Shown: piece by piece, positions 4,260 to 53,866 of the stretch
Layout: each line of letters opens with the position of its first letter
Position numbering within the stretch: the first letter of the stretch is position 1
From: Haloplanus natans DSM 17983
GTDB taxonomy: Archaea; Halobacteriota; Halobacteria; Halobacteriales; Haloferacaceae
Direction: 5' to 3'
DNA length: 64,000 nt
NCBI RefSeq assembly: GCF_000427685.1
Contig: NZ_ATYM01000003.1
Coordinates: 62,001 to 126,000 of the forward strand
Notes under the pieces: generated by a model
What the model saw: only the letters and a program-made list of their open reading frames with translations
What the model was told of the DNA's origin: nothing
The model's database searches: none
Position numbers and translations under genes: made by a program

Positions 4260-6407
4260 ATGAAATTCGATATACCACTCAACACGGACGAAACAGACGG
4301 CAGCCACGTGGAGATCTTCAAGAGCTGGCGGTCGTTCTCGGATGTCTTCGAAGGTGCAAAGCGAATGCGCGTGGTCACCTACTGTGATTCGCCTGAGTTC
4401 ATCCTCGATCTCTTCGAGGACTTAGAGAACCTGGAACGGCTGGAGGTTGTGGTCGGCGATGTCGACGACTATCGCGAACGCCTCATTGATAAACCGGATC
4501 TCGCGGATCGACTTGAGCAACTACGTCGGGACGACAAACTGGTCATCTACCTCTGTGAGAACAAGGAGGTCCACTCGAAGCTCTATTTGATCGAATACTC
4601 GAATGAGGACCTGGCCGACGAGGAAGCCGGAGACGACGACCAGATGACTCTCGGCGGAGAAGCGACCACGGAGTCGGACCCGACAGACCAAGTCAGTGCA
4701 GCACCGGCAAAGGTCGTTATCGGGTCTCCGAACCTGTCCCGCAACGCTTGGTCGAATCAGACGAACGTCGGGGCCGTGTACGACACGACGATAGAGAGCG
4801 ACCTGTACGCACGGTTCGAAGACCTGTACCAAGACCACAGGGACTCCTACAACAAGGGTGGTCCTTTTCTGGAGGACCTCTCCGAGCAGCTTGAGCAGTC
4901 GGATGACGACCGCGAGGAGGTCATCAAACTGTATACGGAGGGGCGGGTCGGGACACAAGATGAGCTCGGAGAGGTACATGGCCGTCTCGCTGACCATATC
5001 GACGCTGAGGTAGAGGCGGTAGATCTCGCGCTCGATGGCGGGACTCCTTCCGAGGATGAATGCACTCAAGTAGCAGATGATGTCGAAGACACCGATGAGC
5101 CGACAGAGGACGGAGATCTAGGATTAGCTGACGCACCGCAAGACCGTATCACGCTGTCACTCAGGGGGTACGACGAGTCGACGGTGAGCACACTGTCTCA
5201 GATGACCGACTTCGACGCGACGGTGTCGAACGATACGTTGACCACAACCCCAGACGCGTTCCAGCGGTACGCCCAGCAGGTCTTCGACGTTCCGACGATG
5301 CACCTGAACGAGGATAGGGATCAGCTCAAGTTCCACTACGACGGCACGGTCTACCGCGTCACGCAACCACCGAAGAGTCCGGAGAAGGTAGACGAGGCAC
5401 TTGCGGAGATTGAGAACTACTTCGCGACCGTAGACGACTACGGGAATTCCAATAATGCCACGGCAGTCAAGGCACACATGTACGAAGCGCTCCTCTGGTT
5501 CTTCTGGGCGCCCTTCGCGAACCGTCAAGCAGCCTTCTACCGACAGCACGGCATCAACCTCGACAAAGCGCTCCCCTATCTCTACATTTTCGGAGAATCG
5601 AACGGTGGCAAAGGAACGTTCTGCCGCTTCGCCCTCTCACTAATCAGTGGAAACCGTGTGGAGGCTCCGGTCGACGCTGACGAGATTGGAAAACGGAAAG
5701 TCCGGAATCTCCGGTCGGCACACACGTCATTCCCCGTAGTTGTCGACGATATCACCAAGCAGAAAGTGAACTCATTAGACACACTCCGGAACTACTGGAG
5801 CGGATGGACTGGGGAATCCTCATATCCAATGTTTGCGTTCATCTCCAACGACAAACGGCCCGGTGAGTGGTTCCGGAACCGAGCTAAGATCCTCCGGTTC
5901 GACGTCAACTTCATGACTTCCCACCAGGGCGAGGCAGAGGTAAATCGCCTCATCGACACGGAGAATCCGATCTTCCAGTGGTTCGGGCACAAATATCTGA
6001 ACCGTGACCTCATACTGGGAGAGGATTCGGACGCACTCCGTGAGGTCAGAGAAGCGATGCTGGACCTTTACGAGTTTGCTGATCGGTCCGTACCGGACTA
6101 CTTCCCGACTGAGCCAGCCGAACAGGCATACGACACTGGTCGGGAGCGATGGCACAATCTTATCGATCGGGAAGACGTCGAAATTAGCAAAGACGGGGAC
6201 ACGCTTCAGGTGACGTTCACGGAATCGATGAACTTCGAGCTACACGAGTACAAGCGTGATCCGCCGATGACGGTTCGGATTGAAAAGCGAGGACTCGATT
6301 TGATTATCAAGACGCCGGACGAGTTCTTCGACTGGCTTGGTGAGACGACTACCGACGATCCACGCGAAGGATTCCTCTCACGCGCTCGTAACCTTCTGAG
6401 TCGGTAG
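4260..6407 (+). CDS. PLD-family nuclease fused to a P-loop NTPase/helicase-like domain
   Basis: In this 715-residue protein the N-terminal region (about 15-205) is a phospholipase-D-like nuclease domain with HxK (H105-K107 in EVHSKLYLIE) and GSPNLSRNAW at 155-164, the Asn-rich second half of the motif. Only one HxK copy is present, as in PLD nucleases that dimerise. An acidic linker (about 210-300) leads to a C-terminal NTPase with Walker A GESNGGKGT (445-453) and Walker B FPVVVDD (491-497), resembling viral/plasmid D5 or SF3-type helicases. The gene follows Argonaute and the membrane hydrolase in one direction. PLD nucleases are known neighbours of prokaryotic Argonautes, so a joint DNA-degrading role is plausible but unproven. 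Confidence 0.78.
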   Translation: MKFDIPLNTDETDGSHVEIFKSWRSFSDVFEGAKRMRVVTYCDSPEFILDLFEDLENLERLEVVVGDVDDYRERLIDKPDLADRLEQLRRDDKLVIYLCENKEVHSKLYLIEYSNEDLADEEAGDDDQMTLGGEATTESDPTDQVSAAPAKVVIGSPNLSRNAWSNQTNVGAVYDTTIESDLYARFEDLYQDHRDSYNKGGPFLEDLSEQLEQSDDDREEVIKLYTEGRVGTQDELGEVHGRLADHIDAEVEAVDLALDGGTPSEDECTQVADDVEDTDEPTEDGDLGLADAPQDRITLSLRGYDESTVSTLSQMTDFDATVSNDTLTTTPDAFQRYAQQVFDVPTMHLNEDRDQLKFHYDGTVYRVTQPPKSPEKVDEALAEIENYFATVDDYGNSNNATAVKAHMYEALLWFFWAPFANRQAAFYRQHGINLDKALPYLYIFGESNGGKGTFCRFALSLISGNRVEAPVDADEIGKRKVRNLRSAHTSFPVVVDDITKQKVNSLDTLRNYWSGWTGESSYPMFAFISNDKRPGEWFRNRAKILRFDVNFMTSHQGEAEVNRLIDTENPIFQWFGHKYLNRDLILGEDSDALREVREAMLDLYEFADRSVPDYFPTEPAEQAYDTGRERWHNLIDREDVEISKDGDTLQVTFTESMNFELHEYKRDPPMTVRIEKRGLDLIIKTPDEFFDWLGETTTDDPREGFLSRARNLLSR

Positions 6408-15739: not shown

Positions 15740-16002
15740 GATCCCTATACGTTTCGGACGCTGAATGGGGAGCTGTTTCGGCTGGGCATCGTCGTGCCCG
15801 AATCACAGTGGACGCGGTGTGCATTGGTCCACGAACTGGAAGATGGTTGGTTTATTGTTATTTATCGAAATATATCACGTAAGTAGTCAGTATTATACGT
15901 AATTGATTCGCGGCACGATACTCTGCGTGTTTGTCCATGGTTACCCCACGTAGACCTCTCCTCTCTTCGTGGGGTAACTCTTGGCCTCAGTTGGGTGAAC
16001 CA
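15740..16002. promoter_or_regulatory. Intergenic region with inverted repeat GTTACCCCACG/CGTGGGGTAAC
   Basis: Perfect 11-bp arms at 15940-15950 and 15968-15978 with a 17-bp spacer. The same site occurs at 51370-51410 and directly before the start codon of the DUF6788-like gene at 53822-53866. It lies 25 bp beyond the SWIM gene and about 230 bp upstream of the ABC operon. Nothing else is recognisable in the interval. Confidence 0.7.
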
Positions 16003-31532: not shown

Positions 31533-31673
31533 ATGTTGAAACTCGCTAGCGAGGGAACGCTCAGTGTCGACGATGCCCGAACCGTAATTGATGCGATTAT
31601 CGACGAGGGCAGGTACTGCGCTCCCGATGTCTACGCGAAGATCATCCAGAAACTCGACTCGCTGGCAGACTGA
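31533..31673 (+). pseudogene. C-terminal remnant of a DUF3368-type PIN toxin
   Basis: Six bases after the UPF0175 stop an ATG opens a 46-codon frame (LASEGTLSVDDARTVIDAII and CAPDVYAKIIQKLDSLAD) that matches the extreme C-terminus of DUF3368 PIN proteins. The PIN catalytic region is absent, so the toxin was removed by a deletion. Confidence 0.6.
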
Positions 31674-32231
31674 TCTGCCCCCGCTGCAGCACAGAGGGAA
31701 CAATCCATAGCGAGAGTCCGTTCTTTTTTCGGTCTGTTCGCGTGCCATCACGAATGTAACACTAGTCTGACACCATCCACTCGACTATATGTGGACTTTC
31801 GCCTCGCTACCACTGCAACTGACCGAATCTGTGACCTCCTCCTCGTCGTAAACGGCGAGGCTTCCCACGGCACCGCACCGCTGGGTTGGGATATTTGCTG
31901 GTTTGTAGTCCGGTCGGCATGACGGGGGTACTGGCGGGGCCACACCGCCGTTACTCCTATCCCGGTAGGGGACTCGGAGTTATCTTGAACTGAGACACCA
32001 CAGCGGTTCGAGATGGTGTCTCGAACGTTCTGGGCCTCAGAGTCCCGATATTGTGCATTTGGATGGGCGGTGTGGCCGCCTCGGTGTATATCATACTACG
32101 ATACGATCTAATTTAAATATCCGTATTGCCGCTGAACGTGGTTTGTGTCGGCGCTGTCGGATTCACGCCCGTCGTAAACGACGGGATTCTCTCCTTGTAG
32201 AAAGATAGCACGTCGGTGACTTTCCCGAGTG
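31674..32231. other. Gene-poor stretch with IS-like hairpins
   Basis: No gene is supported. Two similar hairpins, CCTCGTCGTAAACGGCGAGG (31841-31860) and CCCGTCGTAAACGACGGG (32168-32185), share CGTCGTAAACG and may be the two ends of a non-coding IS605-like unit of about 345 bp. An inverted repeat GAGACACCA/TGGTGTCTC lies at about 31991-32023. Confidence 0.4.
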
Positions 32232-32278
32232 TGTTAACCAACGTCACGAATTCATGACCTACATTTTGTTGGTTAATA
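32232..32278. promoter_or_regulatory. Second TTAACCAAC-type inverted-repeat site
   Basis: Arms TGTTAACCAACG (32232-32243) and TGTTGGTTAATA (32267-32278), with two mismatches between arms and a 23-bp spacer. It overlaps the 3' end of the ArsR-like gene. No DUF6788-like gene accompanies this site family in the window. Confidence 0.55.
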
Positions 32279-33665: not shown

Positions 33666-34658
33666 ATGTACCTCGGGATTGATACCCACAAACACTACTC
33701 GCAAGTTGCCGTCGTGGACGACGACGGCAACTTGCAAGACGAGATTCGCCTGCAAAACGAGGACCTTGCTACTCTTGCTCAGGAGTACGCTGGTGGCGAA
33801 GCAGCCATCAAAGCATCGGGGACGTACCGCCCGATCTACGAGATGCTCGACGAGCATCTCGATGTCACACTGGTGAACCCAGCGAAAACACGGATCATCG
33901 CCGATGCAACAGTCAAGACGGATCGCGTCGATGCGAAGAGACTCGCGCACATGCTCCGGGCGGATATGCTCGCGGAAAGCTACGTTCCTCCGGACGAGAT
34001 CCGCGAACTGCGGGATCTCGTCCGGACCCGTAAGTCGCTCATCGAAGAACGAACAGCGGAGAAAAACCGCGTGCGAGCCGTTCTTACACGGACAAACAAC
34101 ACCTACGACAGCGAGTTGTTCGGTCCAACCGGGCGAGAGTTCCTCGCGGAACTCTCGTTGAGTGAAGCTGACCGAACGATAGTTGAGGCCCATCTCTCCG
34201 TGATTGAAGAACTCACTGAGCAGATCGAAGAGATCGAGGACCTCATCGAGATGAAGGTCCTCGAATATAGCGAGACGCAACTGTTGCTGTCGATTCCTGG
34301 CGTTGGAAACTTCACGAGTGCGGTGATTGTCGCTGAACTCGGAGAGATCGATCGGTTTGACCGCCACGAAGAGGTCGTGAGCTACGCCGGATTAGATCCG
34401 ACGGTTCACCAATCTGGTGAGACAGAAGTGCGCGGGAGTATCAGCAAAGAGGGCCCAGCGGTGTTGCGCTGGGCCCTCGTTCAGGCTGCGACAAACGCTG
34501 TTCGCTACGACGAGTATCTTGGGAACTTCTATACTCGACTCAAAGAGCGGAAAAATCACAAGATTGCGATTGTCGCAACAGCTCGGAAACTGCTCGTGTC
34601 AGTCTTCTATATGCTGACACGCAAGGAAACCTACAACCCACCGGAGGTGAGTGCCTGA
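33666..34658 (+). CDS. IS110-family transposase (DEDD recombinase)
   Basis: A 330-residue protein from MYLGIDTHKH. The N-terminal RuvC-like DEDD domain shows D6 (GIDTHK), TDRVDAKRLAHML (acidic residue around 85-88) and a helical linker. The C-terminal Tnp_IS110 domain has SIPGVGNFTSAVIVAEL, SYAGLDP, SGETEVRGSISKEG and a conserved Ser-containing helix. IS110 enzymes recombine DNA guided by a bridge RNA. Length is normal, so the element may be active. The extra 15 residues from the ATG at 33621 are not family-like. Confidence 0.9.
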   Translation: MYLGIDTHKHYSQVAVVDDDGNLQDEIRLQNEDLATLAQEYAGGEAAIKASGTYRPIYEMLDEHLDVTLVNPAKTRIIADATVKTDRVDAKRLAHMLRADMLAESYVPPDEIRELRDLVRTRKSLIEERTAEKNRVRAVLTRTNNTYDSELFGPTGREFLAELSLSEADRTIVEAHLSVIEELTEQIEEIEDLIEMKVLEYSETQLLLSIPGVGNFTSAVIVAELGEIDRFDRHEEVVSYAGLDPTVHQSGETEVRGSISKEGPAVLRWALVQAATNAVRYDEYLGNFYTRLKERKNHKIAIVATARKLLVSVFYMLTRKETYNPPEVSA

Positions 34659-36939: not shown

Positions 36940-37278
36940 TCATTCCGTGACCGCTCCTTTGTACTCCCAGTCGAGACTATCCCCTTGTCGGCGGACGATG
37001 TACTTGTAGGGGCCATGGAGCTCGCCAGATTGGCACTTGCAGTTGTCTTTGCCACAGCTGACTTTCTTGATCACCACAGTCCCCCCGCTCGATTCTTCGA
37101 CGGCTTCGATCGTCTCGCCTTCGCCGGCGTCGATATCTTCGGCAGCGACGTCCTGGCGGTACTCGAGGAGATCGTCGATCCAGTCCCGGAGGGTGCGTAA
37201 GTCTGCGTCGTCTTGCTTCGGGACGCCCTCAGCGAGATACTGCGGGAGCGAATCGGGAGCCGGTGGTCGAGGGGTCAT
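36940..37278 (-). CDS. DUF6788-like protein of replication module 1
   Basis: A 112-residue protein from MTPRPPAPDSLPQYLAEG. The N-terminal helical region aligns with that of the gene at 53447 (PPAPxxLPxYLxE, then a helical stretch). The C-terminus has a Cys cluster SCGKDNCKCQ followed by GPYKYIVRRQGDSLDWEYKG, the DUF6788 pattern. The start at 37278 is preceded after 2 bp by the inverted repeat TCTTACCAAACA (37281-37326) with an AT-rich TATA-like centre, so the protein probably represses itself. The same repeat occurs twice more around the neighbouring Orc1/Cdc6 gene. The role (DNA binding at these sites) is inferred. Confidence 0.75.
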   Translation of the reverse strand: MTPRPPAPDSLPQYLAEGVPKQDDADLRTLRDWIDDLLEYRQDVAAEDIDAGEGETIEAVEESSGGTVVIKKVSCGKDNCKCQSGELHGPYKYIVRRQGDSLDWEYKGAVTE

Positions 37279-37280
37279 TG

Positions 37281-37326
37281 TCTTACCAAACAACACGGAT
37301 TACTAGAGAATAAATGTTTGGTAAGA
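37281..37326. promoter_or_regulatory. Inverted repeat TCTTACCAAACA at the DUF6788-like start (module 1)
   Basis: Perfect 12-bp arms at 37281-37292 and 37315-37326 with a 22-bp AT-rich spacer that contains the likely TATA box (ATTTATTC in gene direction). Related sites lie at 39379-39423 and 41973-42019. Confidence 0.7.
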
Positions 37327-37957: not shown

Positions 37958-39184
37958 ATGCGTCGATTCGAGCGGAAGCAGAACATCTTCCGCAACAAAG
38001 ACGCCCTTGGAGAATCCTACCAACCCGACCAAATCGAGGAGCGAGATGAGGAGATCGAGGAGTATATGGACGCCCTCCAACCCGTCGTTGACGGTTGGGA
38101 ACCGAACAACATTTTCCTCTACGGGAATACCGGCGTCGGGAAGACCGCCGTCACCGACTATCTTCTCGACAGACTCCAGGACGATGTCGCTGACTACGAT
38201 GACGTTGACCTGTCGGTTATATCGGTGAATTGCAAGACACTGAATTCCTCTTATCAAGTCGCCGTAGAACTCGTGAACAAGCTTCGTCCTGCTGGCGGTG
38301 AAATCAGTTCTACTGGTTATCCCCAACAAACTGTCTTCAAGAAACTGTACGGGGAACTCGAGGCAATCGGTGGGACGATTCTGATCGTCTTGGACGAGGT
38401 CGACTCGATTGGTGATCGAGACGAATTGCTGTACGAACTTCCACGAGCTCGGGCGAACAACAACCTCGACTCGACGAAAGTCGGTGTAATCGGAATCAGT
38501 AACGACTTCAAATTCCGCGATCAGCTGGATCCTCGCGTTCAAGACACACTCTGTGAACGGGAACTGCAGTTCCCACCATATGATGCGCCTGAGCTGGAGA
38601 ACATTCTCGAGTCCCGTGCCGAAATCGCAATCGCCGAGGGTGCCGTTGAGCAGGGTGTGTTGAACTTCTGTGCGGCTCTCGCTGCTCGCGACAGTGGAAG
38701 TGCCCGACAAGCGCTTGACCTCCTTCGATTAGCGGGCGAGATTGCGGAAAATCGCGAAGCGGACCTCATCGAGCGTGACCACGTTGAGGCAGCACGATCT
38801 CGTCTGGAACAGGAACGTGTGGAGGAAGGAATGCGAGAACTGACGACGCACGGGCGTCTCGCACTGTTAGCCGTTATCTCGAAAGCCGCCAAGGACGAGA
38901 CGCCATCCCGAACGCGGGAGATCTACGAGGAATACACCGCACTCTGTGATTCCTCTGGGACCGACTCGCTCGCCCAACGATCCGTGCATAATCATCTGTC
39001 CGATCTTCGGATGCTCGGGATTCTGTCGGCCTACGAGAACCGGAGCGGTTCTCGTGGGAACTACTACAGCTATGAACTGGACGTTCCGTTCACAAGTGCG
39101 ATTGAAGCGATGTCCGACGTTCTGCGGTTAGAAAGCGAAATAGAGACGATCCGAGAAATCGCGTCGATGAACAACGTCGCATAG
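37958..39184 (+). CDS. orc1/cdc6: Orc1/Cdc6 replication initiator 1
   Basis: A 408-residue AAA+ initiator with Walker A GNTGVGKT (56-63), Walker B ILIVLDEVD (141-149), sensor 1 region VGVIGISNDFKFRDQLDPRV, sensor 2 SGSARQALDLLRLAGEIA and a C-terminal winged helix (about 310-400). It should bind the flanking repeats and load the MCM helicase. Repeats of one type lie on both sides, the last beginning at its stop codon, so gene and origin form one unit. The repeats differ from those beside the second Orc1/Cdc6, which predicts separate specificities. Confidence 0.95.
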   Translation: MRRFERKQNIFRNKDALGESYQPDQIEERDEEIEEYMDALQPVVDGWEPNNIFLYGNTGVGKTAVTDYLLDRLQDDVADYDDVDLSVISVNCKTLNSSYQVAVELVNKLRPAGGEISSTGYPQQTVFKKLYGELEAIGGTILIVLDEVDSIGDRDELLYELPRARANNNLDSTKVGVIGISNDFKFRDQLDPRVQDTLCERELQFPPYDAPELENILESRAEIAIAEGAVEQGVLNFCAALAARDSGSARQALDLLRLAGEIAENREADLIERDHVEAARSRLEQERVEEGMRELTTHGRLALLAVISKAAKDETPSRTREIYEEYTALCDSSGTDSLAQRSVHNHLSDLRMLGILSAYENRSGSRGNYYSYELDVPFTSAIEAMSDVLRLESEIETIREIASMNNVA

Positions 39185-39378: not shown

Positions 39379-39423
39379 TCTTACCTAACATCGGTGGAAT
39401 ACCTATACATCTGTTTGGTAAGA
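39379..39423. promoter_or_regulatory. Module-1 inverted repeat, second site
   Basis: Arms TCTTACCTAACA (39379-39390) and TGTTTGGTAAGA (39412-39423), one mismatch, 21-bp spacer. It lies between the origin repeats and the TnpB element and is not at a gene start. Confidence 0.65.
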
Positions 39424-41972: not shown

Positions 41973-42019
41973 TCTTACCAAATTATACATTCGACATTCT
42001 AAGACTCTGTTTGGTAAGA
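41973..42019. promoter_or_regulatory. Module-1 inverted repeat, third site
   Basis: Arms TCTTACCAAATT (41973-41984) and TGTTTGGTAAGA (42008-42019) with a 23-bp AT-rich spacer, between two minus-strand genes. Confidence 0.65.
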
Positions 42020-49342: not shown

Positions 49343-50251
49343 ATGGATTTGGATCGGGCGCGTGGTGTCCTCCTTTGGCTAGCGTGTGGAGATGCGCTTG
49401 GCCGGCCAGTCGAGTTTACATCTGCGTCGGAGATCAGTGCTGAACATAGACGGCTCGACGAGATGGTCGGGCATGGCACGTGGAACCAGCCAGCCGGGAC
49501 GATTACAGACGACACCGAACAAGCGCTGTGCCTCGCCCGAAGTCTAGTAGAACACGAACCGTTCGATCCGACGGATATCGCAGAGCGGTTCGTCGCGTGG
49601 TACGACAGCGGGCCGTTCGATATCGGGCGCATGACGATGCGGTCGCTCAGCCGCCTCAAACACGGTGACCAATGGGACGAGGCAGGCCAGCACGTCTGGG
49701 AGCAGAGCCGAGAAGGTCAGAACGCAGGCAACGGGAGCGTGATGCGGTGTCCACCACTCGCCATCCCATACGCGAATGACTGGGGCCGACTCGTCGAGGT
49801 AAGTCGGCAGTCCTCACAGATCACGCACGCTGACTCACGATGTACTGATGACTGTGCGATCCTGAATCTCACAGTGGCTGGCCTCCTTGACGATGCGGAT
49901 ACGCCGTTGCAGGACGCGCTTGACTACGTCGGTGCGGACGCGCCTGATGAGCTTGCGACGGCACTCCGACCGCTTGCCCGTGGCGACTCGCCCGATACGT
50001 TGGAGACATCGGGCTACGTTGTGCATTCGCTGCAGACAGCACTCCACGATGGCCTTGTCGTGGACAGTGCCGAGGACGCGATTGTGACGGCGGTGAATCG
50101 TGGCGGTGATACGGATACGATTGGGGCAATTGCAGGGACAGTCGCTGGGGCGCGGTTTGGGGCGTTACAGCTTCCGGATCGATGGCTGGGTGCTATCGAC
50201 GAGACCGACGAACTCGAAACGCTAACCGAGCGACTCGTGGAGGTGGCGTGA
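49343..50251 (+). CDS. ADP-ribosylglycohydrolase (DraG/ARH family)
   Basis: A 302-residue protein with the binuclear metal signatures of ADP-ribosylglycohydrolases: GTITDDTEQAL (52-62) at the N-terminus and NRGGDTDTIGAIAGTVAGA near the C-terminus (about 250). A central GQNAGNGSVMRCPPLAIPY fits the substrate pocket. It removes ADP-ribose from proteins or nucleic acids. No ADP-ribosyltransferase is visible here, so the partner or phage-derived target is unknown. Confidence 0.88.
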   Translation: MDLDRARGVLLWLACGDALGRPVEFTSASEISAEHRRLDEMVGHGTWNQPAGTITDDTEQALCLARSLVEHEPFDPTDIAERFVAWYDSGPFDIGRMTMRSLSRLKHGDQWDEAGQHVWEQSREGQNAGNGSVMRCPPLAIPYANDWGRLVEVSRQSSQITHADSRCTDDCAILNLTVAGLLDDADTPLQDALDYVGADAPDELATALRPLARGDSPDTLETSGYVVHSLQTALHDGLVVDSAEDAIVTAVNRGGDTDTIGAIAGTVAGARFGALQLPDRWLGAIDETDELETLTERLVEVA

Positions 50252-50429
50252 TGTACGTGTTGGTGTCTTGAATGAGACGTGTGGGTCGAGTCAGCATCGG
50301 CGGCGGGTCGGGACTCCATACAAACCGAGTCTAACCGGCCCAGATTGTTTGGGTGAACTATAGCCACGAGAGACCAGTATTGAGCTCTTCGAGGAAGGAT
50401 GGACGGATCTCCACAGTGGGTGGGAGGGA

Positions 50430-51258
50430 AAGTTGTTCGCCTTCCCAGTCAGAAATCAACGCGTTCGCTTGGGAGATTCTGCTGACGGTGAAACAACGGC
50501 TGGAAGTGGGCGGCTGGCGCGTCGTCCACGGCATCGTCGACTTCAGATGGGTGACGTCGGACCCCGACGTCGGCGACGAGGACCGCGCGGACCTCGAGAC
50601 GCTCACAATGGAGATCACGGAACGCATCGAGATTCGGCTCGAACACGAAGCCTACTATGACTGGGTGGCGTTCGTCCCACAGCGTCATAGCGACGCCGGC
50701 GCGTTGACGAAGCACTTCGGGAAGGTCGCCGACGAAGACGAGTTCAAGATCAGAGGCATCGAAGCTCGACAGCGCTCGACGCCGCCGTTCATCGAGGCCG
50801 TCCAGCGGAACTGTCTCGAACGGTTCGACGCGACCCGGTCGCCGGACGCAGTGCTTGATTGTCTCCAGGATGCCATCGAGCGGCTCCACGCTGGAACGGT
50901 GCCTGTTGCGGAACTCGTCGAACGGAATCGTATCTCCAAGCCGCTCGAAGGGTACACACAGAACACGCAAAACGTGGCGGCGCTGAAGCGGGCTCGCGAT
51001 CACGACCTCGCTGTCCATCCCGGACAGGACATCGAGTACGTGGTCGTCGACGACGAGAAATCCCCACGAGACCGGGTCGCGTTGGCTCACGAGGAGATCG
51101 AGTCGTATGATCCGTCGTACTACGAGACGCAACTCGTCAGAGCTGTCGAAAGTATCCTGTCTCCGCTGGGTTGGGATAGAATAGATATAAAACGGGATCT
51201 AACGGGCGACCGCCAGTCCGATCTGGATGAATATAATTCGACGCGGAGTAGTAGCTAA
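50430..51258 (+). pseudogene. C-terminal fragment of a family-B DNA polymerase
   Basis: From VKQRLEVGGWRVVHGIVDFR through DWVAFVPQRHSDAGALTKHF, KIRGIEARQRSTPPFIEAVQ and LVERNRISKPLEGYTQNTQN the frame matches the palm end and thumb of haloarchaeal PolB enzymes. The catalytic YGDTDS motif appears only as HGIVDF and everything N-terminal of it (exonuclease, fingers) is missing. The ORF can be extended to an ATG at 50353, but the added head is not polymerase-like. It is a relic beside origin 2. Confidence 0.75.
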
Positions 51259-51369: not shown

Positions 51370-51410
51370 GTTACCCCACACTCGCACAGCTATTATTTTT
51401 GTGGGGTAAC
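51370..51410. promoter_or_regulatory. Module-2 inverted repeat GTTACCCCACA, origin-side site
   Basis: Perfect 11-bp arms at 51370-51380 and 51400-51410 with a 19-bp spacer, 31 bp before the first origin-2 repeat and not at a gene start. Confidence 0.7.
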
Positions 51411-51440
51411 TGCACTAGTCACCAGCTAACTGATATATGT

Positions 51441-51515
51441 CACACACCGGGTTTCCGGTGAAGTGGATAACTAGCCAACTAGTTTCCCGATCGCTTCACC
51501 GGAAACCCGGTGTGC
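51441..51515. repeat. Origin region 2, left side: two Orc1/Cdc6 repeats
   Basis: CACACCGGGTTTCCGGTGAA at 51443-51462 and its complement TTCACCGGAAACCCGGTGTG at 51495-51514 face each other. They lie just downstream of the Orc1/Cdc6-2 gene. Confidence 0.8.
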
Positions 51516-51574
51516 GTCGGCGCCACCAACAGACGTAACGTGGATCGGGAACGGTATCGAGAGGTTTCTGTAGC

Positions 51575-52789
51575 TCACTCGATCGTATCAGCCAGGACAT
51601 CTTTGACGACTGCAGGGTCTTCGAGCAACGTGTGTTCCGTATAGCTTCCTTCAGCACTCCCGCCGCTATGGCGCGATTGCTCGACGATATCCAGAAACGC
51701 GTGTTCTTTCAGGAGATCGCGAACCCGACGAAGCGAAAGCGAGTCGGAGCCTTCCTGTCGGCAGATCTGCTCGTAGAGATCGTAGACTCGAGTCGTACGG
51801 AAGCCCTGATTGTCGGGCGTAGTCTCATCTTCACGGGCATTGATCGACAGCATCGTCAGTGCCTGCAGCACGTACCGTGAGTGCGGTGTCGAGCCACGAA
51901 TCAACTCCCTGAATCGGTCGGTTTCGGCGCGTTCGCGGGCCTGTGTCACGAACTCTTCGCGAACGGTCTCGGCTTCGGTCGATTGGGCTATCTCACCGGC
52001 ATAGCGCAGGATGTCGATGGCCTTACGGGCGTCACCATGTTCACGAGCGGCGAGCGCCGCGGCCCGTGGAATAACACCATCGTCCAGTACGCCATCACGG
52101 AACGCATCGCTTCGAGCGACCATGATCTCGTTGAGTTGAGAGGCGTCGTAGGGCGGAAAGACGAACTCGCGTTCGCAGAGGCTCGATTTGACCCGTTCGT
52201 CCATCCGATCCTTGTACTTGATCTTGTTACTGACACCGATCACGCCGATCTTACACGACTCGAGTTTCCCGGCCTCGCCGGCTCGCGAGAGTTGCATCAA
52301 AATATCGTCGTCTTCCAGTTTATCGATCTCGTCGAGCATGATCAACACAACGTCGTATTCGGCATCGAGGATCTTCCACAGCCGTTTGTAGTAGGTGGCG
52401 GTGCTGATGCCCTTGTCCGGAATATAGATGTCCGTCTCATCAGTGTTGACACTGCTCGCAATCGTCTGTACTGCCTGCGTTTCGGTTCCATCCTGCGCAC
52501 AGTCGACGTAAGCGTGGGCCGCGCTGACACCTTCCTCGTCGGCAGTCTGGACGAGTCGGCGAGACACGTATTTGGCACAGAGCGATTTTCCCGTGCCAGT
52601 CTTGCCGTAGATGAGGACATTACTCGGAGACTGACCGAAAATACCGGGATTGACGGCGTTCGCGAGCTGACCGATTTCCTCGCCCCGGCCGACGATCCGT
52701 CCCTCCTCGGGGAGGTGATTAATTTCGAGTAGCTCTTTATCCACGAAGATCGGATCCTCCCGAATGAATAGATCGTCGGATTTGGACAT
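51575..52789 (-). CDS. orc1/cdc6: Orc1/Cdc6 replication initiator 2
   Basis: A 404-residue AAA+ initiator: Walker A GKTGTGKS (62-69), Walker B VVLIMLDEID (147-156), sensor 1 KIGVIGVSNKIKYKDRMDERV, sensor 2 HGDARKAIDILRYAGEIAQ and a C-terminal winged helix (about 305-395). Origin repeats of a second type flank it, two downstream and five upstream. It differs widely from initiator 1 and should serve its own origin, which suggests a fused or multi-origin replicon. Confidence 0.95.
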   Translation of the reverse strand: MSKSDDLFIREDPIFVDKELLEINHLPEEGRIVGRGEEIGQLANAVNPGIFGQSPSNVLIYGKTGTGKSLCAKYVSRRLVQTADEEGVSAAHAYVDCAQDGTETQAVQTIASSVNTDETDIYIPDKGISTATYYKRLWKILDAEYDVVLIMLDEIDKLEDDDILMQLSRAGEAGKLESCKIGVIGVSNKIKYKDRMDERVKSSLCEREFVFPPYDASQLNEIMVARSDAFRDGVLDDGVIPRAAALAAREHGDARKAIDILRYAGEIAQSTEAETVREEFVTQARERAETDRFRELIRGSTPHSRYVLQALTMLSINAREDETTPDNQGFRTTRVYDLYEQICRQEGSDSLSLRRVRDLLKEHAFLDIVEQSRHSGGSAEGSYTEHTLLEDPAVVKDVLADTIE

Positions 52790-52796
52790 TCGTTAT

Positions 52797-53424
52797 ACAC
52801 CACGTTTCTGGTGAAATAACTTGAGGTTTTCCCCTACACACGCACACCACGTTTCCGGTGAAACTGGGTGAGAGCGCGTCTACACTGCACGTGAAACGGG
52901 GGTTGTCGTCCACGAGAAAAGAGGTCGAAGCGAGGAAGATACGCATGCGCGGCCTCACGAGAGCGAACCTGACGAGAACCTGATTACGGGAATCCACCCT
53001 CGATAGGGGCGGTTCGACTGAATCAAGTAGAACACCGAAGCGACGACCTTCGCTTCGTTCTTTGGTCAGCGATGGAGTCACTGGAAGGTAAGCACGGATA
53101 GATAATAAACCCTCGTCAGACATATGATGTAAATCTGAACGATCTCGTTCCAGTATCTCTCGGTGTCGGTTTCATCGGAAACACGGTGTGTTCACAACGG
53201 GGTTCGTCATCAGTACTCCGTGGATTCGCATGACTTATCGGCTGTATCCCGCGTTCGTGGTTCTCTGATCCGTCGGCAGAGTCGTGAGCTGTGCTGCGAT
53301 TCATATCCTCCCTGTCGACTGGAGTCACATTTCACCGGAAACCCGGTGTGTGTGTGCGGAGTTTTGCGAGTTGACTCAACCAATCAGTCCGTGACTAGTC
53401 TCGATTCACCGGAAACCCGGTGTG
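52797..53424. repeat. Origin region 2, right side: five Orc1/Cdc6 repeats
   Basis: Repeats at 52797-52815 (ACACCACGTTTCTGGTGAA), 52843-52863, 53170-53190 (TTTCATCGGAAACACGGTGT), 53330-53352 and 53405-53424 (TTCACCGGAAACCCGGTGTG). No gene is supported between 52790 and 53446, so this is the likely start site of replication 2. Confidence 0.8.
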
Positions 53425-53446
53425 TCTTCACGAGGCGATACTGAAG

Positions 53447-53824
53447 TCACTCTCGCGGATTCACAGGAGCGATATATTCGTTTTTCCAGGAATCGCCCTC
53501 CCTCCATTGAAAATAGTAATAACGATATCCCGGCTTTGTCTCCTTCACCGTGATGTACGCTCCACTCGTCGGGACACCTTCATAATCCTCTGGATTCGTC
53601 GAGATCTCGCGCTCGTTTAGCTCTTCGAGTTCTTCCTCATCGACTTCGTCCTCTGCTCGTCGACGCTCGAGTTCTTCTTGTCGCTGTCGACGTTTCCCTT
53701 CCGCCAGATCAGCCGCGTACGTCGCGACTGCTTCCAGCCGTTCTAGGGATTGGTTCTCGAGTGGTTCGCGAAGATACTTCGGCAACTCCGGTGCGGGCGG
53801 TTTCTCCGGGATGTCCTCGGCCAT
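53447..53824 (-). CDS. DUF6788-like protein of replication module 2
   Basis: A 125-residue protein from MAEDIPEKPPAPELPKYLRE. It is homologous to the gene at 36940 in its N-terminal PPAPxLPxYL region and its C-terminal GYRYYYFQWREGDSWKNEYI, but has lost the Cys cluster and has a longer charged coiled coil in the middle (EELERRRAEDEVDEEELEEL). The start codon lies 2 bp from the inverted repeat GTTACCCCACAA, whose spacer contains the likely TATA box, so self-repression is expected. Two more copies of the repeat lie at 51370 and 15940. Confidence 0.72.
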   Translation of the reverse strand: MAEDIPEKPPAPELPKYLREPLENQSLERLEAVATYAADLAEGKRRQRQEELERRRAEDEVDEEELEELNEREISTNPEDYEGVPTSGAYITVKETKPGYRYYYFQWREGDSWKNEYIAPVNPRE

Positions 53825-53825
53825 A

Positions 53826-53866
53826 GTTACCCCACAACGAACTGTCATATGAATTTGTGGGGTAAC
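53826..53866. promoter_or_regulatory. Module-2 inverted repeat at the DUF6788-like start
   Basis: Perfect 12-bp arms GTTACCCCACAA (53826-53837) and TTGTGGGGTAAC (53855-53866), 17-bp spacer with an AT-rich ATTCATATG. Confidence 0.72.

Follow-up and report, generated by a model that had tools for sequence, protein, structure and literature searches.

Two-part inverted sites at gene boundaries of haloarchaeal plasmids and viruses: predicted partners of a diversified small-protein family that includes DUF6788

Two modules of a haloarchaeal contig, each combining a gene for a small protein, an orc1/cdc6 gene and pairs of short inverted repeats, raise the question of what the repeats are for and whether they belong to the protein encoded beside them. 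Both modules lie in the 64,000-bp stretch analysed here (the window; positions 62001-126000 of contig C1, which is 429,065 bp long in a genome of 3.8 Mb), and their features are collected in Table 1. The first-pass annotation of the window had placed three pairs of the module-2 type, designated class A here, at the right positions. All three pairs were real; however, the pair at 15940 ends in ...CACG, so that the three have only GTTACCCCAC in common and the shared part is shorter than had been given. Six half-sites with at most one mismatch were present in the window against 0.5 expected, a number that was reached in none of 100 shuffles. The pattern GTTACCCCAC...GTGGGGTAAC with a spacer of 16-24 occurred 12 times in the source genome and in 42 of the 392 haloarchaeal genomes of the order. 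The control pattern, read backwards, was found neither in the source genome nor in any of the 392, and gave 0 matches across the whole-genome scans. Single class A sites off C1 were identified at C5:1646-1687 and C7:1351257-1351298 (C7 being the 3.27-Mb main contig), and a family gene was not found beside either of them.

Table 1. Features of the two modules and further sites in the window
Feature	Position in window	Strand	Remarks
Class B solo site TTAACCAACA...TGTTGGTTAA	31082..31121 (C1:93082-93121)	.	
Class B solo site	32234..32276 (C1:94234-94276)	.	at gene end
Class A solo site	15940..15978	.	24 bp past stop of SWIM-like protein gene
Module-1 family gene, DUF6788 class D1	36940..37278	-	likely start ATG 37278; listed ORF start GTG 37296
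Class D1 site CTTACCAAAC/GTTTGGTAAG (also written CTTACCAAACA/TGTTTGGTAAG)	37282..37325	.	abuts module-1 gene start
orc1/cdc6 no. 1, module-1 partner	37958..39184	+	
Class D1 solo site, variant, one arm CTTACCTAAC	39380..39422	.	~195 bp past orc1/cdc6 no. 1 stop
Class D1 solo site, variant	41974..42018	.	intergenic
Class A solo site	51370..51410	.	convergent gap, DNA polymerase B-like gene / orc1/cdc6 no. 2
Inverted ORB-like pair CACACCGGGTTTCCGGTGAAG	51443..51514	.	beside orc1/cdc6 no. 2; differs from the sites of the family
orc1/cdc6 no. 2, module-2 partner	51575..52789	-	Pfam Cdc6_lid, Cdc6_C
Class A family gene, module 2	53447..53824	-	125 aa from conserved ATG at 53824
Class A site GTTACCCCACA-19-TGTGGGGTAAC	53826..53866	.	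abuts module-2 start codon

The pair at 53826 had been described as lying two bases from the start of the module-2 gene. It does adjoin the start, with a gap of one base to the ATG that is conserved in relatives; a longer ORF start at 53848 falls inside the site. The spacer of this pair contains an AT-rich stretch at the expected place of a TATA box. A scan of 84,980 genomes returned relatives of the module-2 protein at 29 loci, two of which were left out of the comparison of sites (L029, cut off, and L039, a different fusion). Identical 10-bp arms stood at the conserved ATG in 24 of the 27 testable relatives, and arms differing by one base were present in three (L021, L034 and L040), the spacer being 21-23. 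Class A copies that are 87-90% identical occur at C1:37566 and C1:414992, and the alignment of the relatives showed a near-invariant C-terminal block, SGAYITVKETKPGYRYYYWQWRDGDSWKNEYIAPVNP. At 5656-6144 of the excluded Halohasta litorea locus L039, the C-terminal sheet of the family is joined to an HNH endonuclease, and the 11-kb locus lacks a class A site. DNA-binding domains are often fused to HNH endonucleases, as the family's sheet is here.

The structural model of the module-2 protein (mean pLDDT 88) comprised N-terminal helices (residues 16-23, 27-59, which is long, and 63-71) and a C-terminal three-stranded beta sheet (strands 90-97, 100-109 and 112-120). The model of the module-1 protein alone was of low confidence (pLDDT 41) and was not used. 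Foldseek searches of the PDB and of viral models, with VIA-align on the Foldseek candidates, gave nothing significant for the fold. A P4-like integrase arm-binding chain stood at rank 12 with E 2.0 and a TM score <0.3; as this match is not significant, reading of DNA by the beta sheet is proposed by analogy.

Both genes had been called DUF6788-like. The module-1 protein matches DUF6788 (PF20586; 35.6 bits against a cut-off of 27.2), whereas the module-2 protein was unmatched by this model even at E up to 10, and its comparison with Pfam and NCBIfam gave nothing of note. A ParB or KorB domain was absent from both proteins in the same two collections. A direct search of one protein with the other gave 27% identity at an E of only 0.36, and iterated profiles established the two as homologous (4.5e-21), which bears out the description of the module-2 gene as a diverged paralogue. 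The iterated profile unites class A, a commoner class B (~108 aa) and the module-1 protein; class A is reached only by this route. A profile built from the class A alignment found relatives in 87 of 146 haloarchaeal genomes, and the DUF6788 search brought in further members of the family.

To find the arms, the best inverted repeat around each start was taken, with no motif imposed. Each subfamily had one arm type: TTACCCCACA in class A, TTAACCAACA in class B, TTACCAAACA with the variants TTACCTAACA in D1, TTATGTAACA in D2 and TTGTGCAACA in D3. The arms TTGTGTAACA, TTATCAAACA, CTAACCAACA and CTAACCCACA were seen in single or few cases. In nearly all of ~170 modules the site either adjoins the gene start or lies a short way upstream of it, so the matching layout with differing arms that had been noted for the two modules of the window is common to almost the whole set. 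On a protein tree of 174 modules with 11 arm labels, 12 changes of arm were counted (minimum 10), compared with 87 after shuffling; the tree was a quick one with many forks unresolved, and the nesting of the changes within clades leaves about a dozen independent events, not 174, behind this covariation. The covariation is very strong across haloarchaea and supports the earlier suggestion that protein and site sequence coevolve, as judged from the sequences.

Class-B sites were present in 67/67 genomes with a class-B gene (628 sites) and in 12/79 genomes without one (23 sites; p = 1e-29), where the gene was called at a profile E of ≤1e-11, two class-A-only genomes and one CTAACCAACA type were left out, and the threshold and exclusions were chosen after the subfamilies had been seen. 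The partnership of site and protein is near certain. The first-pass annotation had expected the arm to vary with the N-terminal region of the protein, and this was not supported. Columns conserved within and different between the five large classes made up 10 of the 85 positions before residue 86 and 16 of the 40 from residue 86 on, and this concentration in the C-terminal sheet leads us to place specificity there. What had been observed in the window is a real and general phenomenon that extends far beyond it.

The genomic position of the sites was analysed in six replicons, or large parts of them, which were read with our own gene caller (on one annotated plasmid, it reproduced 17/17 stops and 16/17 starts). 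Sites were intergenic in 64 of 65 cases, compared with 17.7% of positions at which 41 bp fit between genes; 12 of the 65 stood at a start and 52 were solo. Among the solo sites, 27 lay ≤45 bp after a stop against 7.8 expected (reached in 0/1000 simulations), and the excess persisted when promoters were kept free and only gaps ≤400 bp were used (23 against 12.8). Eighteen solo sites lay 60-105 bp before a start, against 6.7 expected. Convergent and divergent gaps were considered as favoured places and neither was enriched; the preference is for positions just past stop codons. A solo site in a convergent gap has no adjacent promoter to act on, which counts against regulation by the protein at such places; the class A site at 51370 is 111 bp from the end of the DNA polymerase B-like gene and 164 bp from that of orc1/cdc6 no. 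2. Genes for orc1/cdc6, DNA polymerase B-like and HTH proteins were recurring neighbours of solo sites, and from one plasmid to another sites recur next to the same genes. The DNA polymerase B-like gene of the window (50353-51258, 301 aa) seems shorter than the 721-aa relatives that stand beside sites in other plasmids. An ADP-ribosylglycohydrolase gene (49343-50251) adjoins the plasmid replication region.

At the family's own genes, the right arm of class A sites ends ~1 base 5' of the ATG, with an AT-rich stretch near -33 to -20, and class-B sites end ~14 bases upstream of the start. The virus phiH1 allowed a comparison with annotated transcripts. The phiH1_250 gene (PhiH1_250) encodes a member of the DUF6788 family (3e-37), and four sites of its type, with 0 controls, were identified in the phiH1 genome (MK002701.1) at 31632-31677, 34079-34124, 38207-38252 and 53523-53568. 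The first of these holds the annotated start of transcript T8 (31672), which precedes PhiH1_245-250, and has TTTAATA in its spacer; the left arm is therefore outside the transcript, and the core promoter lies between the two arms. The other three lie 36, 9 and 18 bp behind stops. One phiH1 site, 36 bp behind repR, is ~50 bp upstream of the annotated start of T7 (parA). Of the three sites in the virus ChaoS9, one abuts the family gene gp49, one overlaps the end of orc1 and one that of a CxxC gene.

Taken together, we think it probable that the family consists of self-regulating, replicon-wide DNA-binding proteins of diversified specificity, and that each pair is a predicted two-part binding site for the small protein of the neighbouring gene. 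Carriers of the family, Pfam DUF6788 included, are haloarchaeal plasmids and viruses such as phiH1 and ChaoS9. The protein may dimerise through its N-terminal helices, and each C-terminal sheet would then read one arm of 10-11 bp, a site being formed by two inverted arms ~19-26 bp apart. As the arms at the own gene bracket the TATA region and the transcription start, bound protein should shut its own promoter. Such repression is likely, and the annotation of T8 as constitutive in the phiH1 record counts against it. Acting as a regulator or organiser of the whole replicon, the same protein would also occupy the remaining intergenic sites, most of which closely follow a stop and many of which precede the next gene by 60-105 bp. 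With recognition surface and arms having diverged together (at least eight classes), different backbones could coexist in one cell or replicon without cross-talk.

The proximity of orc1 offers another reading, namely that binding of the protein at origin sites limits Orc1-dependent initiation, so that replicons of the same class exclude each other. An orc1 gene was found within 3 kb of at least 84 of 129 family genes (class A 17/29, class B 48/60, DUF6788 19/40), which are lower bounds given flanks of 3-6 kb and few query proteins; the D2 class of DUF6788 is often away from orc1. In both modules of the window the orc1 gene is also followed by a site, and coexisting modules differ in predicted specificity. 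As a general rule the site behind orc1 failed: among 98 orc1 genes on site-holding stretches, a site stood within 400 bp behind in only 16 and within 400 bp before in three. Most sites are remote from any origin, being dispersed over whole replicons and mostly post-stop, and three class A modules with proteins 87-90% identical share one contig. In the published case of Haloarcula hispanica, origin incompatibility was tied to the Cdc6-dependent oriC2 itself, with an ORB-rich region as negative control (PMC3936714). A role of protein and site in incompatibility or replication control is rather unlikely, and incompatibility would be one possible consequence of protein-site coevolution.

The dispersal of multiple palindromic, mostly non-promoter sites over low-copy replicons would also suit a partition system with parS-like sites and the protein as their centromere-binding factor, and in phiH1 and ChaoS9 the family gene lies within ~2 kb of parA. 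ParA, however, was found within 3 kb of only 14 of 129 family genes (class A 3/29, class B 4/60, DUF6788 7/40), again lower bounds for the same reason. In pCBA1232-02 and pCBA1113-02 the ParA genes directly precede a gene of their own, with no site nearby. We consider partition as the function of the family improbable. The position of about half of the solo sites, ≤45 bp past a stop codon, might suggest RNA hairpins acting as transcription terminators or 3'-end elements. This is very unlikely, as the left arm at gene-start sites is upstream of transcription (phiH1 T8), and neither the sequence nor the length of the loops is constrained, whereas the arms are fixed and track the protein class. 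Short inverted repeats scattered on plasmids could also be recombination sites or the termini of small mobile elements, but the spacers within a replicon are unrelated and of varying length, which shows that the pairs are not copies of an element, and positions repeat beside the same genes across plasmids, which leaves this reading with hardly any credibility.

A replicon-wide regulator of the preferred kind might also act beyond the element that encodes it. Exact class A or B sites were identified in 54 stretches of IMG/VR contigs; in many of the viral contigs concerned (loci L296-L349) these are exact class-B sites, the majority of them intergenic. A family gene was present in only 2 of the 33 site-bearing virus records searched, which tells against the preferred reading, and its absence from the other 31 is not firm because many records are fragments. 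No relatives of the module-1 protein were found in viral contigs by tblastn. The many viruses with sites and without the gene could be sensed or repressed by the protein of a resident plasmid, or could exploit that protein. In a wider and tentative proposal, which we hold to be rather unlikely as a whole, the sites would mark replicon identity: a diversifying family of beta-sheet DNA-binding proteins at gene boundaries, each member having a two-part site to itself, would keep mosaic backbones orthogonal and also act between elements. On C1, five family genes of three classes each lie within ~2 kb of orc1/cdc6, and five of the six orc1/cdc6 genes are accompanied by a family gene. The contig looks like a mosaic of several fused plasmid backbones, and the co-residence of classes A, B and D1, each with its own sites, fits orthogonal specificities.

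The literature search found no paper naming DUF6788; the haloarchaeal and halovirus literature searched contained nothing on this protein or its sites. Papers listed as containing the class A or B arm sequence were unrelated. A domain of unknown function, carried on a large share of haloarchaeal plasmids, gains here a proposed partner and a role that can be tested, and archaeal plasmid biology a candidate replicon-wide regulator. The natural series of protein-site pairs might serve to work out a recognition code. The analysis also locates an overlooked gene and four sites in the genome of phiH1, one of the classic model viruses of archaeal gene regulation.

Several known systems bear comparison. 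PF20586 includes the module-1 protein, and its members likewise have a two-part site abutting the gene start; class A, unlike module 1, is outside the Pfam model. Origin control by ORB and Orc1 in haloarchaea (PMC3936714) is alike in neighbourhood, inverted repeats and replicon-specific recognition; however, ORBs are bound by Orc1/Cdc6, whereas the class A arm has a different sequence and is dispersed. The L region of phiH1 (PhiH1_245-250, transcript T8) contains a family member, in a virus with four sites, and the consulted passages of the phiH1 genome paper (PMC6210493) mention neither the sites nor a role for phiH1_250. The three-stranded beta-sheet domains of integrase arm-binding and AP2 proteins have a similar secondary structure, at the insignificant match level given above. 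KorB of plasmid RK2, acting with KorA, is plasmid-encoded and self-regulated and has many sites at gene boundaries; it belongs to the ParB family of HTH proteins, has ParA as its neighbour and partner, and binds short single palindromes. The present family differs in its protein, in arms ~19-26 bp apart, in mostly having no ParA neighbour and in its archaeal host. What the two have in common is a site at the own promoter together with further, like sites at the boundaries of genes throughout the plasmid, and the comparison is one of layout, not of homology.
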